DNA of 28,678 nt from a virus, in the IMG/VR virus record IMGVR_UViG_3300037070_004620, positions 1 to 28,678 of that record; one strand, given 5' to 3'. The translations under genes and the position numbers were made by a program. Positions 7,362-26,650 of the stretch are shown here, piece by piece (the stretch's first letter is position 1; each line of letters opens with the position of its first letter). Below the pieces are notes generated by a model. The model was given only the letters and a program-made list of their open reading frames with translations. It searched no databases and had not been told where the DNA came from.

Positions 7362-7390
7362 TTGACAATAGACAATTGCCCTAGTAGCAT
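7362..7390 (+). promoter_or_regulatory. Promoter P2 (TTGACA-17-TAGCAT)
   Basis: A perfect TTGACA (7362-7367), 17-base spacer ending in CTAG, and TAGCAT (7385-7390), just after the stop of the LamG-like gene. Unlike P1, P3, P4 and P5 it is not followed by an ATG. Downstream come a 6-bp hairpin and then a strong intrinsic terminator, so it probably drives a short RNA or an attenuated leader. Confidence 0.65.
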
Positions 7391-7397
7391 CCTAAAT

Positions 7398-7463
7398 AGA
7401 TAGGTAGTTCCTATCCACAGCTAGACTAAGGGTCGGCACCAGACTATGGTGGCGGCCTTTTTT
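7398..7463 (+). ncRNA. Putative ~66-nt phage small RNA or attenuated leader
   Basis: Predicted start is near A7398, seven bases after the -10 of P2. The RNA would begin with hairpin GATAGG (7399-7404), loop TAGTT, CCTATC (7410-7415). A 15-base single-stranded stretch follows, then the terminator hairpin 7431-7457 and six T. No start codon with a ribosome site lies inside, so it would be non-coding. Alternatives are an attenuator in the scaffold/coat leader, where regulated read-through would be needed, or an RNA that loads an antitermination factor. The transcript itself is inferred. Confidence 0.45.
7431..7463 (+). terminator. Rho-independent terminator before the scaffold gene
   Basis: GGTCGGCACCA (7431-7441), loop GACTA, TGGTGGCGGCC (7447-7457), then TTTTTT. 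The 11-bp stem has one G-G mismatch and one G-T pair. It would end both read-through from the fibre genes and the short transcript from P2. Scaffold and coat lie downstream, and no strong promoter is seen between the terminator and the scaffold start. Confidence 0.8.
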
Positions 7464-7507
7464 AACGCTTACTGATCGGACAACACGATACAGAAGAAAG
7501 GGGGTGA

Positions 7508-8215
7508 ATGGATATGAACAACGACGAATTTTTCGGTGATGGTGAAGATGCTCAGGAAGAAGCACCAACCAAACTAAGGATTGGTGAAGAGGAGTTTGAT
7601 CCTGAGGAAGCACAGAAACTGATTGCTTTGGGCAAGATGGGACGGGAGGTTGAGGAAAAATACAACACCCGACTGGATCGGGTTTATCCCGAATACACCA
7701 AAGCCACTCAGGAGCTGGCAGCCATCCGTAAGGAGAAGGAAGAAGCAGAGAGAACGGCACTGCAACAGAAGCAGGAGCAGGGCTCAGAGCTGACACCTGA
7801 CGAGAAAAAACGCCTCGCCAGAGAACAGGCTAGAGAGCTTGGGATACTGACAGAGGATAGTTACTCCGAACGCTTTGACCGGGACTACGCTGAAAGGCGG
7901 GCTGGTGAGAAGCTAGTAGACAGTGTCAACGACTTAGTCAAAGACGCTAGTGAAAAAGGTATTAATACGACCAATGTCAAGATTTTGGAATTCATGCAAC
8001 AAGAAGGACTCAAAAACCCTAAGACGGCTTTCGAGCTTATGCACAAGGACGCTATTAGGTCATGGGAAGAAGAACAACTCAGAAAATCACGCCCCAACGG
8101 GCTAGTGACTGAGAGTTCTTCGACTGCGGGTGCCAAGCAACCAGAACCAGTAAAGTACACAAGAAGTAACTTACTGGACTCAGTTCTGGAGAGCTTGAAC
8201 AACGGCAGTAAGTAA
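7508..8215 (+). CDS. Capsid scaffold (assembly) protein
   Basis: A 235-residue, highly charged, mostly helical protein directly before the coat gene, the usual place for a scaffold that templates procapsid assembly and is then released. The first ~40 residues are acidic. Residues ~60-110 are a likely coiled coil (KATQELAAIRKEKEEAERTA, then QQKQEQGSE). The C-terminus is basic/polar, as expected of a coat-binding tail (KYTRSNLLDSVLESLNNGSK). There are two in-frame starts, ATG 7508 and ATG 7514. The ribosome site AGAAAGGGGGTGA lies immediately before 7508, so spacing favours the second one. No protease motif is visible. The assignment rests on composition and position. Confidence 0.75.
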   Translation: MDMNNDEFFGDGEDAQEEAPTKLRIGEEEFDPEEAQKLIALGKMGREVEEKYNTRLDRVYPEYTKATQELAAIRKEKEEAERTALQQKQEQGSELTPDEKKRLAREQARELGILTEDSYSERFDRDYAERRAGEKLVDSVNDLVKDASEKGINTTNVKILEFMQQEGLKNPKTAFELMHKDAIRSWEEEQLRKSRPNGLVTESSSTAGAKQPEPVKYTRSNLLDSVLESLNNGSK

Positions 8216-8273: not shown

Positions 8274-9551
8274 GTGATTACAATTCCAGTAACAATTTCA
8301 GATGTAACCGATACACTTCAAAAAATCATTATGCCCTATATTCAGGATAACCTTCCTAAACACACTATCCTTTTGGATCAGTTGAAAAGGAATGCTGGAG
8401 TTACCGTCATGAACGATAACTTCTATGCTCCTATTAGGGCATCTAGACACGGTGGAGTGGCTAACCTTGCAAACGACGCTTCCAAGCTCGTTTCAGGTGA
8501 GACCAGCTTCGACCAGGCACAGATTGGGGTCAAAATCCTAACTGGTGCGTTTGATATATCAGATTTGACAATCAAAGCGACCAATTCCGATAAAAAGGCT
8601 GTTGCGACTCAGTTAACAGTCCAAGCCGAATCCCTAGCTAGTGACTTTGCAAGAAATGTCAACCGACAGATGTGGTCAGACGGAGTAGGCGTTGTGGGCG
8701 AGATTGCAGGATCAGTATCCTCAACCGTTTTCACAATCGTCACACCGACAGGCTCCATCGACGACGGTAGAACCATCGACAACTACGGCTCCGTTAATGG
8801 AGACAGAAACGTAGCTGAATACTTGGCTCCAGGTATGCTGATCGGTATAGGAACCGCAGCAGCCGCTAAAGGAACCATTTCATCAGTCAACGCGATTGAT
8901 TCCTATTCAGGAACCGTCCATGGAACCATCACCTTGACTGGGGCTACCGCTACCGCCGCTAATGACGCTATCTTTATTCTAGATGGTGATTTAGCAGGAG
9001 CAGGTACCGCAGAAATAACAGGTATCAGAGCAGCTTTATCCTCGACAACAGGCACTTCGCTTTATGCGACAGTACCTCGTTCAACAGTAGGATGGGCTCC
9101 TCAGTTTGGTTCAGTTGCCGAGGCTTTAACACTTTCCAGAATGGAGAGTGCCTACCTCAGAGCTAAAAGGTTTTCCAAAGCAGGCGACAGATACGCCATC
9201 TTCGTTAATTTATCCCTCTACAAAAAATATGGGGATCTCTTAACTTCGATGAGACGATCTGTTGACACCGCTGACCTTTTAGGTGGTTGGACAGGATTGG
9301 AGTTTGCAGCCGGTGCGGGTAAAGTTGGGGTTTTCCTCGACTACGATGTACCAGACGGAGAGTTCTATGTGCTCAATTTAGACACATGGACAATTTGTCA
9401 GGTTGGAGACTTGGGTTGGATTGATGGGGGAACAAGCGATATGCTTAGACGCTCAGACTATTTGACCTATCAGGCCGTAATGGCTTGGTACACTAACTTG
9501 CTTTGCTTAGCTCCAGCAGCTAATGCTAGAGAAGCGCAGAAAACTGCGTAG
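8274..9551 (+). CDS. Major capsid (coat) protein
   Basis: A 425-residue protein placed between scaffold and a strong terminator. The layout fits an HK97-fold coat: a helical N-terminal segment (VTDTLQKIIMPYIQDNLPKH), a mixed region with GETSFDQAQIG (E-loop-like), and a long spine-like helix (QLTVQAESLASDFARNVNRQ). A Thr/Gly/Ala-rich insertion spans ~140-245, and the C-terminal domain ends in hydrophobic strands (VGVFLDYDVPDGEFYVLNLD). The insertion could be a surface domain. The start is uncertain. GTG 8274 is part of AGAAAGGGAGTGAT, itself a near-perfect ribosome site, so initiation a few bases later, possibly at ATT 8283, is mechanically more plausible (see findings). I infer the role mainly from order, size and composition. 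Confidence 0.8.
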   Translation: MITIPVTISDVTDTLQKIIMPYIQDNLPKHTILLDQLKRNAGVTVMNDNFYAPIRASRHGGVANLANDASKLVSGETSFDQAQIGVKILTGAFDISDLTIKATNSDKKAVATQLTVQAESLASDFARNVNRQMWSDGVGVVGEIAGSVSSTVFTIVTPTGSIDDGRTIDNYGSVNGDRNVAEYLAPGMLIGIGTAAAAKGTISSVNAIDSYSGTVHGTITLTGATATAANDAIFILDGDLAGAGTAEITGIRAALSSTTGTSLYATVPRSTVGWAPQFGSVAEALTLSRMESAYLRAKRFSKAGDRYAIFVNLSLYKKYGDLLTSMRRSVDTADLLGGWTGLEFAAGAGKVGVFLDYDVPDGEFYVLNLDTWTICQVGDLGWIDGGTSDMLRRSDYLTYQAVMAWYTNLLCLAPAANAREAQKTA

Positions 9552-10849: not shown

Positions 10850-10874
10850 AACGCGGCAACGAGCTTCCAAGGAA

Positions 10875-10903
10875 TTGACAAATGGACGTTGATCCGCTAA
10901 AAC
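10875..10903 (+). promoter_or_regulatory. Possible promoter before HNH gene
   Basis: A perfect TTGACA (10875-10880) is followed, after 17 bases, by TAAAAC (10898-10903), which matches TATAAT in four of six positions and lacks the CTAG that precedes the -10 in P1-P3 and P5. The predicted start, near 10910, falls inside the 5' arm of the following hairpin. This is weaker than P1-P5. Confidence 0.35.
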
Positions 10904-10951
10904 ATAAAAAGCAGTTTTGATTATCAAGTAACAATCAGACTGCTTTTTATG
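10903..10951 (+). terminator. Long hairpin ending in the HNH start codon; possible bidirectional terminator
   Basis: CATAAAAAGCAGT (10903-10915) pairs perfectly over 13 bp with ACTGCTTTTTATG (10939-10951). Inside, TGATT and AATCA can add five pairs. The arms carry an A-run and a T-run, so the element could terminate on either strand. The ATG of the HNH gene is the last three bases of the 3' arm and would be sequestered in read-through mRNA. Confidence 0.6.
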
Positions 10952-14807: not shown

Positions 14808-14898
14808 GATAGAGAATAAGACCAATTCCACTAAAGGCTGTATTCAAAGAGGACTAAGAAAATTGACAGGAGGTAAAACTCCTAGTAGCATGAAATAA
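14728..14898 (+). CDS. Small overlapping basic protein (56 aa)
   Basis: ATG 14728 lies directly after AAAAGGAGGTTT, one of the best ribosome sites in the window, and opens a 56-residue frame that overlaps the end of the GT4-like gene for 80 bases in another frame. The product starts MAKTKVLLMPLEWWMKVAK and continues NPKWHREIENKTNSTKG; it is basic, with Trp residues near the N-terminus. The stop TAA is at 14896-14898, and the 3' end contains promoter P3. Family unknown. The strong ribosome site is the main evidence. Confidence 0.6.
   Translation: MAKTKVLLMPLEWWMKVAKLNPKWHREIENKTNSTKGCIQRGLRKLTGGKTPSSMK
14863..14891 (+). promoter_or_regulatory. Promoter P3 (TTGACA-17-TAGCAT)
   Basis: TTGACA 14863-14868, 17-base spacer ending in CTAG, TAGCAT 14886-14891, inside the end of the 56-aa gene. 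ATG 14901 is 9 bases after the -10. A start at A14898 would leave a 3-base leader, and there is no ribosome site. The stretch GAAATAACAAT after the -10 is almost repeated after P5. Confidence 0.7.
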
Positions 14899-14900
14899 CA

Positions 14901-15203
14901 ATGGCATCACAACCCGTCAGCGCAGCATCCATGACCAGGGTCTCAGGCACCGCAGCAGGTACCACGGTTATAGCAGCAACACCCGTTAACTTCACGAGAG
15001 TGTATGTGCCAGCTAACAGGACAGGAACAGCCTCTTTCTACAACGCCACCACAGGCGCTGGAACAGCCGCAGGTAACTTTCTCTTTGACCTTGCAAATAC
15101 CGTTGGATCAATCCCAACTAACATTGAGGTTGGGGTCAGGTGTAATCGGGGTTTGACCGTAGTTGTCGGTGGAACCGTCGATTTTAACGTAATTTGGGAA
15201 TAA
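14901..15203 (+). CDS. Small beta-rich virion protein candidate
   Basis: A 100-residue protein with several beta-strand stretches (GTTVIAATPVNFTRVYVP, GLTVVVGGTVDFNVIWE) and Thr/Ala/Gly-rich loops. It looks like a small jelly roll or Ig-like fold of the type used as cement or spike-base proteins. It is the first gene after promoter P3, and its ATG has no ribosome site, so it is probably read from a nearly leaderless mRNA. Read-through ribosomes from the upstream gene could also reinitiate. The function is inferred from composition only. Confidence 0.6.
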   Translation: MASQPVSAASMTRVSGTAAGTTVIAATPVNFTRVYVPANRTGTASFYNATTGAGTAAGNFLFDLANTVGSIPTNIEVGVRCNRGLTVVVGGTVDFNVIWE

Positions 15204-17982: not shown

Positions 17983-19395
17983 ATGCCTAGACTCGCTATT
18001 GCTAATTTGGGAGGGTTAAACCTCCAGACAAACCCATTGCTTTTAAAAGACGGTGACATGATCCGTTCAGTTAACGTCGACTGCTTCCCCTTTGGTGCCA
18101 AGAGTAAACGACCAGGCTATGGCACCTTTTTAGGCACTGCTGATGGTTCAGCTCCGACCTCACTTTTTTCATGGACCAAGAATGACGGTACCAGCCTCTT
18201 TTTATACCGGGCTTCAGGATCGCTAATCCATTACTCAACCCAAGGCACAGGTGCTTGGACCGTGGCAGACAACGGCACCATCAGCCCTGGAGCTCATGTC
18301 GGATACACCGTTTTAGACAACACCTTAATTGTCGGGGATGGGGTAGGTGCAGCTCGTCACACCACCAACGGCACGGCTTTCACCAACACCTCACTAGCTC
18401 CGATAGGTGAATATTTCAACCAGTACCAGAACAGGGTGTATGTGGGCGGTACCAGCTCCACCCTCTTTTACTCAACGACAGGCGATGCTACCAATTGGTC
18501 AACCTCAGGAACTTCGGACTCCTCCTCTATCGACATTCCAGGGGCTGGCAAGCTCAACGGGGTTTTCAAGCTGGCAGACAGGATCGTCCCCACTAAGAAC
18601 TCAGGACTGCTGTTTAGATGGGATGGTTTCTCTTTAGTTGACACCGCCACTAAACTTGGACCCACCTCACCGTATTCGTTTGCTAAGAGTGAAGACTACG
18701 CTTTCTGGCTCAACAACTTGGGCTTCTTTGGTTCGGGAGGTGACAAACCACAGCTTCTGTCAAACCCAATCCAGCGCCAGATCTACAACGACTCAGGTTC
18801 AGCCGTGGTCGGTTCGGTCTTTGGAACTGCACCAGCTGAGGTTCACCGTTACGACTATTACTGTGCTGTTGGGGATACCACCGATGACTTAACGGCAAAG
18901 ACGGTCGGAGGCTGCATCATGAAATACAACTACCAGCTAAACGAATGGGGCAATTACAGCTTCGCCAACTTCCCGAGCGCTTTCCATTCGTATAAGGACG
19001 CCAACGGAGTTGACCGGCTGATATTTGGAGACAGCTCAGGCCAGTGCTTCACATACGGTGGTACAGCGTTAACCGACAACGGCTCACCGATCGAGGCGGT
19101 GATGGAGTTTTTAGTTCACGGCAGCATGCCCTTTACCGATAAAAAATGGAACTGGTGTCGGGCGGTTTTCAACCCGGGATCACAGGCCAAGATTCAGGTA
19201 GCTGTGGCTGACAGGCTGGATGTCTCATCCCTCAACTGGGTGGATCTGGGTGACACCTCACGAGGCTTCGTCGAGTACCGCTTCCCTCAGGGCTCGCGTG
19301 GTCACTTCCTGTTTGTCCGTATTAGTGAGAACTCCACCCACTCCCGTTTTTCCTTCTACGGCTTCGAATACGACTTTGACCCAATCCAAAGATGA
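17983..19395 (+). CDS. Tail nozzle / tubular protein B-like beta-propeller
   Basis: A 470-residue protein. It opens with LGGLNLQTNPLLLKDGDM and SVNVDCFPFGAKSKRPGYG, a pattern typical of phage tail-hub or stabilisation proteins of podoviruses (T7 gp12 or P22 gp10-like). It then shows repeated propeller-blade strands with Trp/Phe turns (SLFLYRASGSLIHYST, RVYVGGTSSTLFYSTTGD, LLFRWDGFSLVDT). The C-terminal ~100 residues form a beta-sandwich (KIQVAVADRLDVSSLNWVDL, HFLFVRISENS). It would close the tail tube. ATG 17983 follows GGAGATGACTAATTT. The stop overlaps the next start as ATGA. Confidence 0.7.
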   Translation: MPRLAIANLGGLNLQTNPLLLKDGDMIRSVNVDCFPFGAKSKRPGYGTFLGTADGSAPTSLFSWTKNDGTSLFLYRASGSLIHYSTQGTGAWTVADNGTISPGAHVGYTVLDNTLIVGDGVGAARHTTNGTAFTNTSLAPIGEYFNQYQNRVYVGGTSSTLFYSTTGDATNWSTSGTSDSSSIDIPGAGKLNGVFKLADRIVPTKNSGLLFRWDGFSLVDTATKLGPTSPYSFAKSEDYAFWLNNLGFFGSGGDKPQLLSNPIQRQIYNDSGSAVVGSVFGTAPAEVHRYDYYCAVGDTTDDLTAKTVGGCIMKYNYQLNEWGNYSFANFPSAFHSYKDANGVDRLIFGDSSGQCFTYGGTALTDNGSPIEAVMEFLVHGSMPFTDKKWNWCRAVFNPGSQAKIQVAVADRLDVSSLNWVDLGDTSRGFVEYRFPQGSRGHFLFVRISENSTHSRFSFYGFEYDFDPIQR

Positions 19396-20201
19396 ACAGC
19401 GGAACAGCTAATCCTTACCTGCAATCGCCAAACTCACCCATCTCCCGTAAGCGGGGGTTTCAGGCAGGAGCGGACTTCGACCTCCAGACAGACAGAAACA
19501 TTATAACCACCCCCAAGGTTCAGGACGGCTCCATCACTGATGATAAGATCGATTCACTAAGCTTTAATAAAGCCTCAGGTGGAACACTGGTCTTAGGTGG
19601 CTCAGGTAACGGTAATGGCGTGATGCTGATTAAAAATTCTGTTGATTCAACGGTGGTGACAGCCAACAACGCTGGAATTGCCATCACGGACGGTAACATC
19701 ACCATTGAAAATTCTGGGGGTACCACGATTATTGACGGCAGTGGGTTAGTCTCAACCGCCAACTTCCCCTCTGATCAGGTCATCAACTCGACAGGCTACA
19801 CCACCGCTTCTACCTCGCTGATTGATGTCACAGGTTCAAGCTTGGCAGCGTTCACTTTAGACAGAACTACCAAGATACTAATCACAGTTCAGGCGCAGCT
19901 ACGAAATGACAACTACGTCAATGATGGGAGTTTAGCCGAACTGGTGTGTAACGACTCAGTTGAGGGTGATCTCATCACCTTCGATTCTCCCACCGACTGG
20001 TACCTGACCGCGATTAATGAAGACGGTTTTGGTTTCATCACCAGCTGGGATATTGACACAGACTACCGCTTTATGGGGGTGTCATTGATTACTGAGTTGG
20101 TGGCAGGTTCACACATCCTGAAACTGAGGTTCAGAGTGGATGGAACAGGCACGGCTAGGATTGGAACTTATATATTGTCGTATATCGTGTTAGGAACTTA
20201 G
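19392..20201 (+). CDS. Tail appendage protein candidate
   Basis: A 269-residue protein. Residues ~1-45 are polar and Pro/Gln-rich. Residues 45-130 contain short GG/DG-centred beta repeats (SGGTLVLGGSGNGNGVM, NAGIAITDGNITIENSGG, GTTIIDGSGLV) that look like part of a solenoid, as in phage needle and fibre shafts. From ~135 to the end a beta-sandwich of about 130 residues is seen (TTKILITVQAQLRND, HILKLRFRVDGTGTARIG). A fibre-tip or tail-needle role is likely from its place after the nozzle gene. Family name not recognised. Confidence 0.6.
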   Translation: MNSGTANPYLQSPNSPISRKRGFQAGADFDLQTDRNIITTPKVQDGSITDDKIDSLSFNKASGGTLVLGGSGNGNGVMLIKNSVDSTVVTANNAGIAITDGNITIENSGGTTIIDGSGLVSTANFPSDQVINSTGYTTASTSLIDVTGSSLAAFTLDRTTKILITVQAQLRNDNYVNDGSLAELVCNDSVEGDLITFDSPTDWYLTAINEDGFGFITSWDIDTDYRFMGVSLITELVAGSHILKLRFRVDGTGTARIGTYILSYIVLGT

Positions 20202-20202
20202 T

Positions 20203-20442
20203 ATGGAGCATAAAAAGGCACTCGCTAAATTCAAAGAGAAGAAAAATCAACGCAAACAGCTCCAGCTAGTAGGTGGTGAGTTTGTGGTGGGAACTGAGGC
20301 TGACGAGAAGAATCAGCTGTGGTATGTGATTGATCGAGGTGGAGTTCTGGTGTTAGAGCCAGCCAGAGGTCAGAAGGTACGCCAAATCTTTAAGCTCAAA
20401 GACAGGGGTACGGTGACTGTCACCAAGTTACCCAAAAATTGA
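20203..20442 (+). CDS. Small basic hypothetical protein
   Basis: A 79-residue protein starting MEHKKALAKFKEKKNQRK, a strongly basic helix, then a compact beta domain (GEFVVGTEADEKNQLWYVI, GGVLVLEPARG, RGTVTVTKLPKN). It follows the appendage gene after one base, and its ribosome site is GGAAC. The stop TGA lies inside the -35 of promoter P5. Unknown family; a small tail or head accessory is possible by position. Confidence 0.6.
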   Translation: MEHKKALAKFKEKKNQRKQLQLVGGEFVVGTEADEKNQLWYVIDRGGVLVLEPARGQKVRQIFKLKDRGTVTVTKLPKN

Positions 20443-20467
20443 CTTTGGGAATTTTGACTAGTACCAT
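20439..20467 (+). promoter_or_regulatory. Promoter P5 (TTGACT-17-TACCAT)
   Basis: TTGACT 20439-20444, 17-base spacer ending in CTAG, TACCAT 20462-20467. The upstream gene's stop lies in the -35. ATG 20480 is 12 bases after the -10, with no ribosome site. The sequence GAAATAACAAT between -10 and ATG also follows P3. Confidence 0.65.
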
Positions 20468-20479
20468 CGAAATAACAAT

Positions 20480-21400
20480 ATGGCACAGCTCGTTTATACA
20501 ACACCAGAGTCATTAGCAGGGAAATCACTGCGTCAGATCCATGATGACCCTTCAATGATCAACAGATTCGATGCTCCCGACCAGCTAGGAGTCGGATTCG
20601 ATTCACCACTCACCAAAGGTCAACAGTTTAGTTACACCACCGATGATCCAACTTATCAGGGCGGTAGCATGTTTCAGTCTCTAAACCGTGTGTTTGGTCA
20701 AGCCATGTCCCCAGAGCAGGCCGCTGTCCAGCCAGCCATCAAATCCCTTCAGGAGTCAGCCCCCGAGATCTCTCAGAAGTTTGCGACCGAGAAACAACGC
20801 CTAGAAGGTGAGAAAGACCCCCTCAAAAACCGCTATGACGCTTTAATCGGTGAGCTGAAAGGCAAGCAGACAGCCACCGAAAACTCAGCGGTTAAACGGA
20901 CCGCTGGAGAGTTTGGCAAGCGTGGTATCCCTCTGACCTCGAGTCTCTACGGCAATGAGGAAGCAGCCGTCCTAGACCCGATCCGCTCCCAGTACGGAGG
21001 ACTACAAAAAGACGCTTACCTAGGCATGGAAGACAGCATGAGGAATATCACCAACCTGATCTCAGGTCTGGTGCCTCAGGAGGTAGAAGCCCAAAGGGGA
21101 ATCACCAATGCCATAGCCCAGCTCCAGAGTGGGGCGGGGAAAGACGCCATCGCCAATGCCTTCCAGCAGCTCCAGTTCCAAGAAGGACAGAGACAATTCA
21201 ACCAACAGCAATCACTAGCTCAGAACAGGCTTGACTTCGAGAAAACTCAAACCAAGGCAGATGAACAGAGCTTAAGGGATCAGTTCATGACCCTACCTGA
21301 GGGCAATACCCTATTCAACCTCCTAACAGGAAAAGCTCAGTACACAGCCCCTAAGACCTACAAGCCAGATAGCAGTTCAGGAGATGGGGATTGGGGATGA
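20480..21400 (+). CDS. Candidate internal virion (ejection) protein
   Basis: A 306-residue, Gln- and Ala-rich protein, largely helical after residue 80 (QQLQFQEGQRQFNQQQSLAQ, NRLDFEKTQTKADEQSLRDQ), with no transmembrane segment. The N-terminal part has IHDDPSMINRF and a Gly/Ser/Pro-rich loop. Size, helicity and placement just before a second long protein with small-residue-rich helices and a transglycosylase match the inner-core or ejection proteins of short-tailed phages. These leave the capsid with the DNA and help it cross the envelope. The ATG is 12 bases behind P5 and lacks a ribosome site. Confidence 0.55.
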   Translation: MAQLVYTTPESLAGKSLRQIHDDPSMINRFDAPDQLGVGFDSPLTKGQQFSYTTDDPTYQGGSMFQSLNRVFGQAMSPEQAAVQPAIKSLQESAPEISQKFATEKQRLEGEKDPLKNRYDALIGELKGKQTATENSAVKRTAGEFGKRGIPLTSSLYGNEEAAVLDPIRSQYGGLQKDAYLGMEDSMRNITNLISGLVPQEVEAQRGITNAIAQLQSGAGKDAIANAFQQLQFQEGQRQFNQQQSLAQNRLDFEKTQTKADEQSLRDQFMTLPEGNTLFNLLTGKAQYTAPKTYKPDSSSGDGDWG

Positions 21401-25635: not shown

Positions 25636-25866
25636 ATGGAACGAAATCAGATCAGACCCAGCGGTTATGAACAACGAGCAAGAGCTATCAAAATGGCTAA
25701 CGTTATGGAACGTGAACTTCAAAGGGAACGCAACAAAATGATGGCTGGCCTCCGCTCGGAGATTGGAGTTTCGGTGCTGTGGCGAAATGGTAGGATTATT
25801 ACTCACAGGCTGTTGTCCTCAGAGGAACCTAAAAATCAGCCTCCTTACGAGCTTCTTCTCCAGTAA
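25636..25866 (+). CDS. Hypothetical basic protein, last plus-strand gene
   Basis: A 76-residue protein starting immediately after the upstream stop, with AGGAGA as ribosome site. The first 50 residues are a strongly charged helix (ERELQRERNKMMAGLRSEI), followed by a beta hairpin (VSVLWRNGRIITHRLL) and a Pro-rich end. Its last 38 bases overlap, tail to tail, the convergent ArdC-like gene. No terminator is visible between them, so antisense overlap of the two transcripts is likely. Function unknown. Confidence 0.6.
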   Translation: MERNQIRPSGYEQRARAIKMANVMERELQRERNKMMAGLRSEIGVSVLWRNGRIITHRLLSSEEPKNQPPYELLLQ

Positions 25867-26650
25867 GCTTATCAATCATTATTCCACTAACCCGTTGGAT
25901 CTGTCCCAGAGCTGCCCGTAGGACGTTCTTATCCTGAGCCCACGTACTGATGTACGGAAACGACCTCTCCCCCGAATCCAACCCAAACCGTCTCAGCACT
26001 ACATAGGCTACTCCCTCGGCCTCAGTCTCGGTAGCTGGGCCTGATTGCTCGTGGTTGGCGTAGAAATGTCCGATTTCGTGAGCTAGGGTTTTGGTAGCTT
26101 GGAGCTGTGAGACACCATCCCTGACAACGATCCTCTTAGTAGGACGATCCAAGAAACCCATCACCGAGGGCCGCAGATCCAGCATCGGGTCAGTTCTCGA
26201 CACCGACAACCCCTCACTCCCAGCCAGGTCGTTCATCCTGCCATAGAGCTCCCCTCCAGCCTCGGAGTCCAGTACAGGAACAGGGATAGTCGGCAGGTCC
26301 TCCCCCTCAGTTTGTTCCTGAGCAAATACAGATACAGCTCTGAACCCACTGACTCGGTAGCCATCCTCACCAGTCTCCTCATCGGTAAACTTCCGCTTCA
26401 TGGGGGCTAGGATACGGATGGACTTCTCCCCCTTCCTGACGAAACGATTCATCTGCTGCCAAGATCGGTATCCAGCTACACGAGAAGCCTCAGGGTACTG
26501 GGCCATAATAAGCAAAACATTATTGAAACTATATTGGTGGAACCTGGCTTGATAATCCAGATACTGGCGGAAAGTGTCACTGTCCTGAATCTCTGAAACT
26601 TTGGACTCTAGGGTTTTAAGGGCTGTAGCAACATGATCGGTTTCCTTCAT
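25829..26650 (-). CDS. ArdC-like antirestriction protein with zinc metalloprotease domain
   Basis: A 273-residue protein. Residues ~20-110 match the ArdC N-terminal domain (SFNNVLLIMAQYPEASRVAG, then SWQQMNRFVRKGEKSIRIL), a single-stranded-DNA-binding antirestriction module. Residues ~185-250 carry the zinc-peptidase motif LAHEIGHF (H191, E192, H195) with a third-ligand segment ETEAEGVAY near 208-216. ArdC of conjugative plasmids protects incoming DNA from restriction; the same role at phage entry is likely. It is the last gene of the minus-strand block and starts behind element copy 26648-26662 instead of a Shine-Dalgarno. Zinc dependence is inferred from the motif. Confidence 0.8.
   Translation of the reverse strand: MKETDHVATALKTLESKVSEIQDSDTFRQYLDYQARFHQYSFNNVLLIMAQYPEASRVAGYRSWQQMNRFVRKGEKSIRILAPMKRKFTDEETGEDGYRVSGFRAVSVFAQEQTEGEDLPTIPVPVLDSEAGGELYGRMNDLAGSEGLSVSRTDPMLDLRPSVMGFLDRPTKRIVVRDGVSQLQATKTLAHEIGHFYANHEQSGPATETEAEGVAYVVLRRFGLDSGERSFPYISTWAQDKNVLRAALGQIQRVSGIMIDKLTGEEARKEADF

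Follow-up and report, generated by a model that had tools for sequence, protein, structure and literature searches.

A candidate late-gene transcription attenuator ahead of the scaffold and coat genes of a virus and before virion operons of its relatives

The DNA that we analyzed, referred to here as the window, is a virus record of 28,678 bases. At the locus described, a sigma-70-type promoter is followed by a 5' hairpin, a strong intrinsic terminator, a scaffold gene, and a coat gene, in that order. The individual features, with the hairpins designated P1, P2, and P3, are as follows.

7362-7390, + strand: promoter with 10/12 matches, consisting of TTGACA (7362-7367), a 17-nt spacer, and TAGCAT (7385-7390)
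7396-7398, + strand: predicted transcription start, about 7397, placed by its distance from the -10 hexamer
7399-7415, + strand: 6-bp hairpin P1, GATAGG-TAGTT-CCTATC, with which the RNA opens at its 5' end, from folding, with a covarying counterpart in relatives
7420-7437, + strand: P2, a 7-bp candidate antiterminator hairpin containing a bulged A, GCU(a)GACU-AAG-GGUCGGC
7428-7463, + strand: intrinsic terminator from folding, stem about 7428-7460, U6 run 7458-7463
7472-7493, + strand: hairpin P3, adjoining the Shine-Dalgarno sequence, CTG-ATCG-gacaaca-CGAT-(A)-CAG, in which one A of the 3' side is unpaired
7497-7507, + strand: Shine-Dalgarno sequence of the scaffold gene (AAAGGGGGTGA), from the sequence
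7508-8215, + strand: putative scaffold gene, 235 aa, so named for where it lies and for its size and composition; its product has no PHROG or Pfam match
8274-9551, + strand: major capsid protein gene, 425 aa, phrog_14242, E 7e-20

The first-pass annotation of this DNA placed a promoter, a 5' hairpin, and a terminator within positions 7362-7463, and the sequence and its folding bear out all three. The terminator has a folding energy of -20.3 kcal/mol and shows the G+C-rich stem with a U-run directly after it that characterizes intrinsic terminators, and transcription from the predicted start at about 7397 would yield a terminated RNA of about 67 nt. A generic terminator scan of the window does not list the terminator at 7428-7463, probably because its stem contains mismatches. 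The window leader folds far better than its dinucleotide shuffles (z -4.9 and z -3.8). The promoter bears a window-specific extension, CTAGTA, at 7381-7386, and its score is equaled in the window by three more sites on the + strand and one on the - strand. From the terminator to the coat gene, our promoter scan found no + strand site of at least 9/12, in agreement with the earlier remark that no other strong promoter is seen for the coat genes. Promoter-like and terminator-like matches are as numerous in the window as in shuffled sequence; therefore, the presence of a promoter and a terminator in the window alone is weak evidence. On its own the window arrangement is near chance expectation, and it is the relatives that make the case convincing.

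Relatives of the window coat (phrog_14242) in IMG/VR are mostly 52-62% identical to it, and we gathered further coat branches by searching with the coats of these relatives. A promoter and a terminator are kept upstream of the scaffold gene in 28 phage loci, the window included, whose coats are 49-62% identical, and the relatives carry a consensus TTGACA...TATAAT promoter at a position matching that of the window promoter. The 5' hairpin is present in nearly all of the 28 loci, with stem sequences that differ from one locus to another; L009, L039, and L068 have no clear P1. The terminator is absent from L008, L017, L018, L024, L031-L033, L053, and L054, some relatives have a promoter and a hairpin but no U-run, and the entire module is absent from the relatives L004, L022, L026, L029, and L059. 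No recognizable module was found in Microbacterium phage Shocker, a distant coat relative, and a portal search for nearer relatives of the window phage returned none. A descriptor scan for the promoter-terminator combination gave 22 occurrences in seven related genomes versus 2-4 in shuffles, and a pattern scan of viral contigs for a promoter, GAATTAGAAGG, and a U-run returned only the known phages and two chance matches within coding sequence (L103 and L104).

Candidate Phyla Radiation phages are known almost only from sequence. Phages of Roizmanbacteria have been reported (PMC6509639), and one coat relative, 49% identical to the window coat, lies on a 487-kb contig of a Candidatus Roizmanbacteria MAG (G001), where the module is also present. 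The coat was found in one of the 373 genomes of the host class, and the link to a host is based on this one MAG contig.

In the relatives, the stretch between P1 and the terminator is complementary to the 5' arm of the terminator. The predicted hairpin P2 that this stretch forms and the terminator are mutually exclusive, since the 3' arm of P2 is the 5' arm of the terminator. When the P2 5' arm is compared with the terminator arm, the matched value is 10.2 and the value for arms swapped between phages is 7.1 (z 4.8, p 5e-5). Across the family, P1 begins at the predicted RNA start and has a conserved A-rich loop, about AYAAAANAG, and P2 occurs mostly in one register with a loop consensus of about GAAUUAGAAG; some P2 helices are just 3 bp long. 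We aligned eleven scaffold copies with MAFFT to give the seed alignment A6, in which 79.1% of cells are paired versus 55.5% after shuffling and all 10 pairs of P1 and P2 have changed on both sides. Thus, when the stems are examined for conservation and covariation, a check that the first-pass annotation itself had proposed, the family keeps its structures through two-sided base changes while its sequence has diverged. A pairing between the P1 loop and the U-tail, striking in single copies, was rejected as not significant (p 0.065).

The window shows the same arrangement less distinctly. A window transcript ended at 7445 folds P2 exactly as listed above, and the 3' arm of P2 (7431-7437) is a portion of the terminator 5' arm. 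Taken by itself, the window P2 is not significant (z -0.89), whereas P2 is strong in the family.

A covariance model, R1, was built solely from the eleven scaffold-leader copies, and it finds more copies elsewhere in the same phages; a later model, R2, adds others. These extra copies precede genes for the terminase small subunit, the portal, and minor virion proteins, as well as genes of a protein family whose window homolog is the gene at 20480. The covariance model includes neither the promoter nor the terminator U-run. We examined 26 model matches. A promoter scoring at least 9/12 lies no more than 48 nt upstream of 24 of them, versus 5% of random positions, and a U-run lies downstream of 23, versus 16% of random positions. 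We repeated the comparison of matched and swapped arms on 27 other copies, none from scaffold leaders and all but one from phages, that had not been used to form the pairing hypothesis, and obtained 10.35 versus 7.82 (p 1e-5). An alignment of 22 distinct rows (A8), which was built after the model matches had been collected and, being fitted to the model, leans toward it, has 83.6% of cells paired, versus 55.1% after shuffling and at most 41% when slid, and 67 two-sided cells versus 21, with two-sided changes in all 10 pairs of P1 and P2. In 47 of 52 copies, P2 is predicted to be less stable than the terminator, with means of -4.0 and -13.0 kcal/mol, respectively. In three copies (L057, G011_33800, and G012_13403), P2 lies inside the terminator, whose stem uses the 3' arm of P1 instead, indicating that what termination excludes is P1 and P2 in combination. 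Stem sequences vary among the copies of one genome. The loops of copies in one genome are modestly similar, weakly above chance, and the P1 stems are slightly similar too, so we have not used loop similarity as main evidence.

When sets of 373 and 380 host genomes were searched with the model, few matches appeared, none clearly real except those in G001, where the copy adjoins a phage coat, and in G242. The matches in G460 and G372 appear to lie within coding sequence and those in G263 and G113 are unconvincing; all four were set aside. The G242 match (L151; contig 35, 7058-7105) comes from a host-class genome and is an orphan module whose P1, P2, and terminator are all good; it lies near a tRNA gene and has no evident downstream gene on the same strand. 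In the phage record G011, a match to the manA RNA (RF01745; L092, 1339-1492, minus strand; 42.3 bits, E 5e-8, below the gathering score of 55.2) lies just downstream of an attenuator copy and before the terminase gene.

The window copy has diverged from this family. It scores nothing in the R2 model search, and its loops, UAGUU in P1 and AAG in P2, are both off the family consensus, with the architecture kept. On the basis of these sequences, we hold the claim for the family more firmly than the claim for the window, whose membership is less certain. The exact motif TTGAC-N14-CTAGTANNAT occurs at four window promoters, beginning at 2585, 7362, 14863, and 20439, and is absent from the other phage loci that we fetched. 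The three besides the coat-operon promoter are as follows.

2585-2613, + strand: sister promoter with TTGAC-N14-CTAGTANNAT and no attenuator, ATG at 2626
14863-14891, + strand: sister promoter with the same motif and no attenuator, ATG at 14901
20439-20467, + strand: sister promoter with the same motif and no attenuator, ATG at 20480

In all three cases, a structural gene without a Shine-Dalgarno sequence has its ATG 9-13 nt after the promoter, which suggests nearly leaderless mRNAs and a lineage-specific promoter signal. Possibly, the window lineage controls its late genes at the promoter and retains an altered attenuator at the coat operon only. Elsewhere in the window (10862-10945), a long hairpin whose arms are AAAAAGCAG/CTGCTTTTT stands between a TTGACA and an HNH endonuclease-like gene, possibly another promoter-terminator unit.

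Between the terminator and the scaffold gene lies the third hairpin, P3. Hairpins of this type, with one unpaired nucleotide (most commonly A) on the 3' side, stand before the scaffold Shine-Dalgarno sequence in 29 of 43 loci versus 4.6 expected, while the version with a 5'-side bulge is found 3 times versus 4.4 expected. By comparison, the P3-type hairpin precedes the coat gene in 5 of 43 loci and is found in 98 of 830 cases before all genes of at least 100 aa. P3 is independent of the attenuator in that it occurs also where the attenuator is absent. A natural guess is that P3 is a candidate translational operator; it would probably add translational control, perhaps feedback by the scaffold or coat protein. 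As a small hairpin with an unpaired A beside a ribosome binding site, P3 resembles the coat operators of the MS2 type, from which it differs in its loop, its position, and its gene, the scaffold gene of a dsDNA phage.

Other genes in these records may be mentioned here. The window encodes an ArdC-like anti-restriction protein with an IrrE-type peptidase domain (25829-26650, minus strand; PF08401 and PF06114). In G387, GroES- and GroEL-like proteins are encoded downstream of the coat gene (18957-19247 and 19266-20834), with relatives in three other records. Outside the virion block, G005, G011, G012, and G014 carry sugar-phosphate genes, judged by eye from the sequence: phosphoheptose isomerase-like, heptose kinase-like, nucleotidyltransferase, transketolase halves, and epimerase.

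Given the comparisons and predicted folds described above, we judge it probable that the element is a late-gene transcription attenuator, one copy of a leader module that is repeated before the virion operons of related phages. The default should be off because the terminator is more stable than P2: the terminator, being much more stable, would win and give an RNA of 60-70 nt. Late in infection, a factor that is probably phage-encoded would bind the loops of P1 and P2 and hold the P1+P2 state, and RNA polymerase would then read into the structural genes. The terminated RNA of about 67 nt would probably be a by-product. Controlled read-through by an antitermination factor was one of two ideas in the first-pass annotation and is the one that fits best, although the decisive second hairpin overlapping the terminator had been missed, and in related phages the element exists in many copies.

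The other of those ideas was a self-contained small RNA. Here the terminated transcript of 60-70 nt would function in trans, and its several copies would form an RNA family, for example decoys for an RNA-binding protein. The compact units of promoter, hairpin, and terminator, the conserved loops, the hairpin at the very 5' end, and predicted terminated products of about 62 nt all suit such an RNA. Its P2 5' arm, however, would be unpaired and under no need to fit the terminator arm, which it nevertheless matches; the copies stand directly before virion operons on the same strand, a placement that a small RNA leaves unexplained; and the in-genome similarity of the loops is weakly above chance. 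We therefore regard a dedicated small RNA as unlikely. Still less probable, in our judgment, is processive antitermination of the put type, in which P1 and P2 would bind RNA polymerase directly and, with no phage protein needed, carry it past the adjacent terminator and those beyond. In its favor, putL of HK022 is likewise described as a pair of stem-loops with which a phage transcript of about 70 nt begins (PMC9378689), and our searches for ANTAR and NusG-family proteins, given below, brought up no phage factor; but putL acts on terminators elsewhere, while the arm common to P2 and the adjacent terminator is the signature of a local switch, and a constitutive put element would leave that terminator purposeless.

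Two further readings were rejected on the evidence against each. Because the terminator sits between two gene groups, it could be an insulator that ends transcription from the portal side, with the promoter and hairpin incidental. This is very improbable, given that in module copies the terminator comes after the promoter, whose distance to P1 hardly varies, and that the model finds the same order before other operons. The inverted repeat directly downstream of the promoter could likewise be a repressor site, that is, a palindrome in the DNA after the -10 hexamer. In G005, however, the arms differ between copies (GCGG, CTAG, CCTG, and CCAG) with the loop conserved, and G-U pairs occur, all of which points to an RNA hairpin and leaves a DNA operator scarcely credible.

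Returning to the attenuator, we searched 13 phage records, several of them incomplete, for its factor. No ANTAR match and no NusG-family match was found in them; one ANTAR match lies in the host genome G001. A comparison of gene content between phages with and without the module gave no candidate regulator. Host ANTAR proteins are present in 13 of 110 genomes of the class, and the module loops do not fit ANTAR. The window has no Rfam match above the gathering score, and seven module loci have no Rfam match on the module even at E 0.5. Our search of the open literature found no description of the module, nor did the papers searched contain a description of late-gene timing in Candidate Phyla Radiation phages. 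Somewhat less firmly than the attenuator itself, we lean toward the broader proposal that the copies form a new RNA family, a dual-hairpin antiterminator serving as a shared late-gene switch in Candidate Phyla Radiation phages, in which a probably phage-encoded RNA-binding factor opens many virion operons simultaneously and from which the window copy has diverged. If so, a switch governing the terminase, portal, coat, and other virion operons jointly would amount to a late-gene strategy distinct from lambda Q, phage-encoded polymerases, and put. The RNA model could be used to annotate Candidate Phyla Radiation phages, and it points to a candidate antiterminator that binds RNA, for which common laboratory bacteria could be used both to look for it and to test it.

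Several known systems resemble the module in part. In phage lambda, the strong promoter pR' is followed by the terminator tR', giving the short 6S RNA ahead of the late genes, and the DNA element on which Q loads belongs to the promoter region, between -35 and -10. The module likewise has a strong promoter, a terminator, and a short RNA before late genes, but its conserved features are RNA hairpins that are repeated at several operons. Lambda 6S RNA and HK022 put had both been named as precedents, and neither is an exact match: the former because it depends on the Q protein, and the latter because the description of put RNA includes no pair of hairpins with an arm in common with a terminator. 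The RAT of the BglG/LicT/SacY systems is a single imperfect hairpin of about 29 nt that is stabilized by protein and overlaps the terminator. This overlap is shared with the module, which differs from RAT in consensus and in not being a single hairpin.

The ANTAR targets, which are the dual-hairpin antiterminators of EutV, NasR, and AmiR, have hexanucleotide loops with A at position 1 and G at position 4 (PMC3369931). Like the module, they consist of two tandem small leader hairpins with conserved loop residues and an alternative terminator fold, and they occur in several leaders (PMC3369931). Tandem hairpins that exclude the terminator are found in the module family and weakly in the window copy. 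The A1/G4 hexanucleotide loop is found neither in the window loops nor in the two family consensus loops, which are about 7-10 and 10 nt long and have another consensus, and no ANTAR-domain protein accompanies the module in the 13 phage records noted above. HK022 put acts in cis, without a protein, on RNA polymerase at distant early-gene terminators (PMC9378689). In common with the module, it is a leader RNA of a phage, about 70 nt long, that carries two stem-loops close to a promoter and counters termination (PMC9378689). What sets the module apart from put as described is that its P2 shares an arm with the adjacent terminator and that its copies stand at virion genes.
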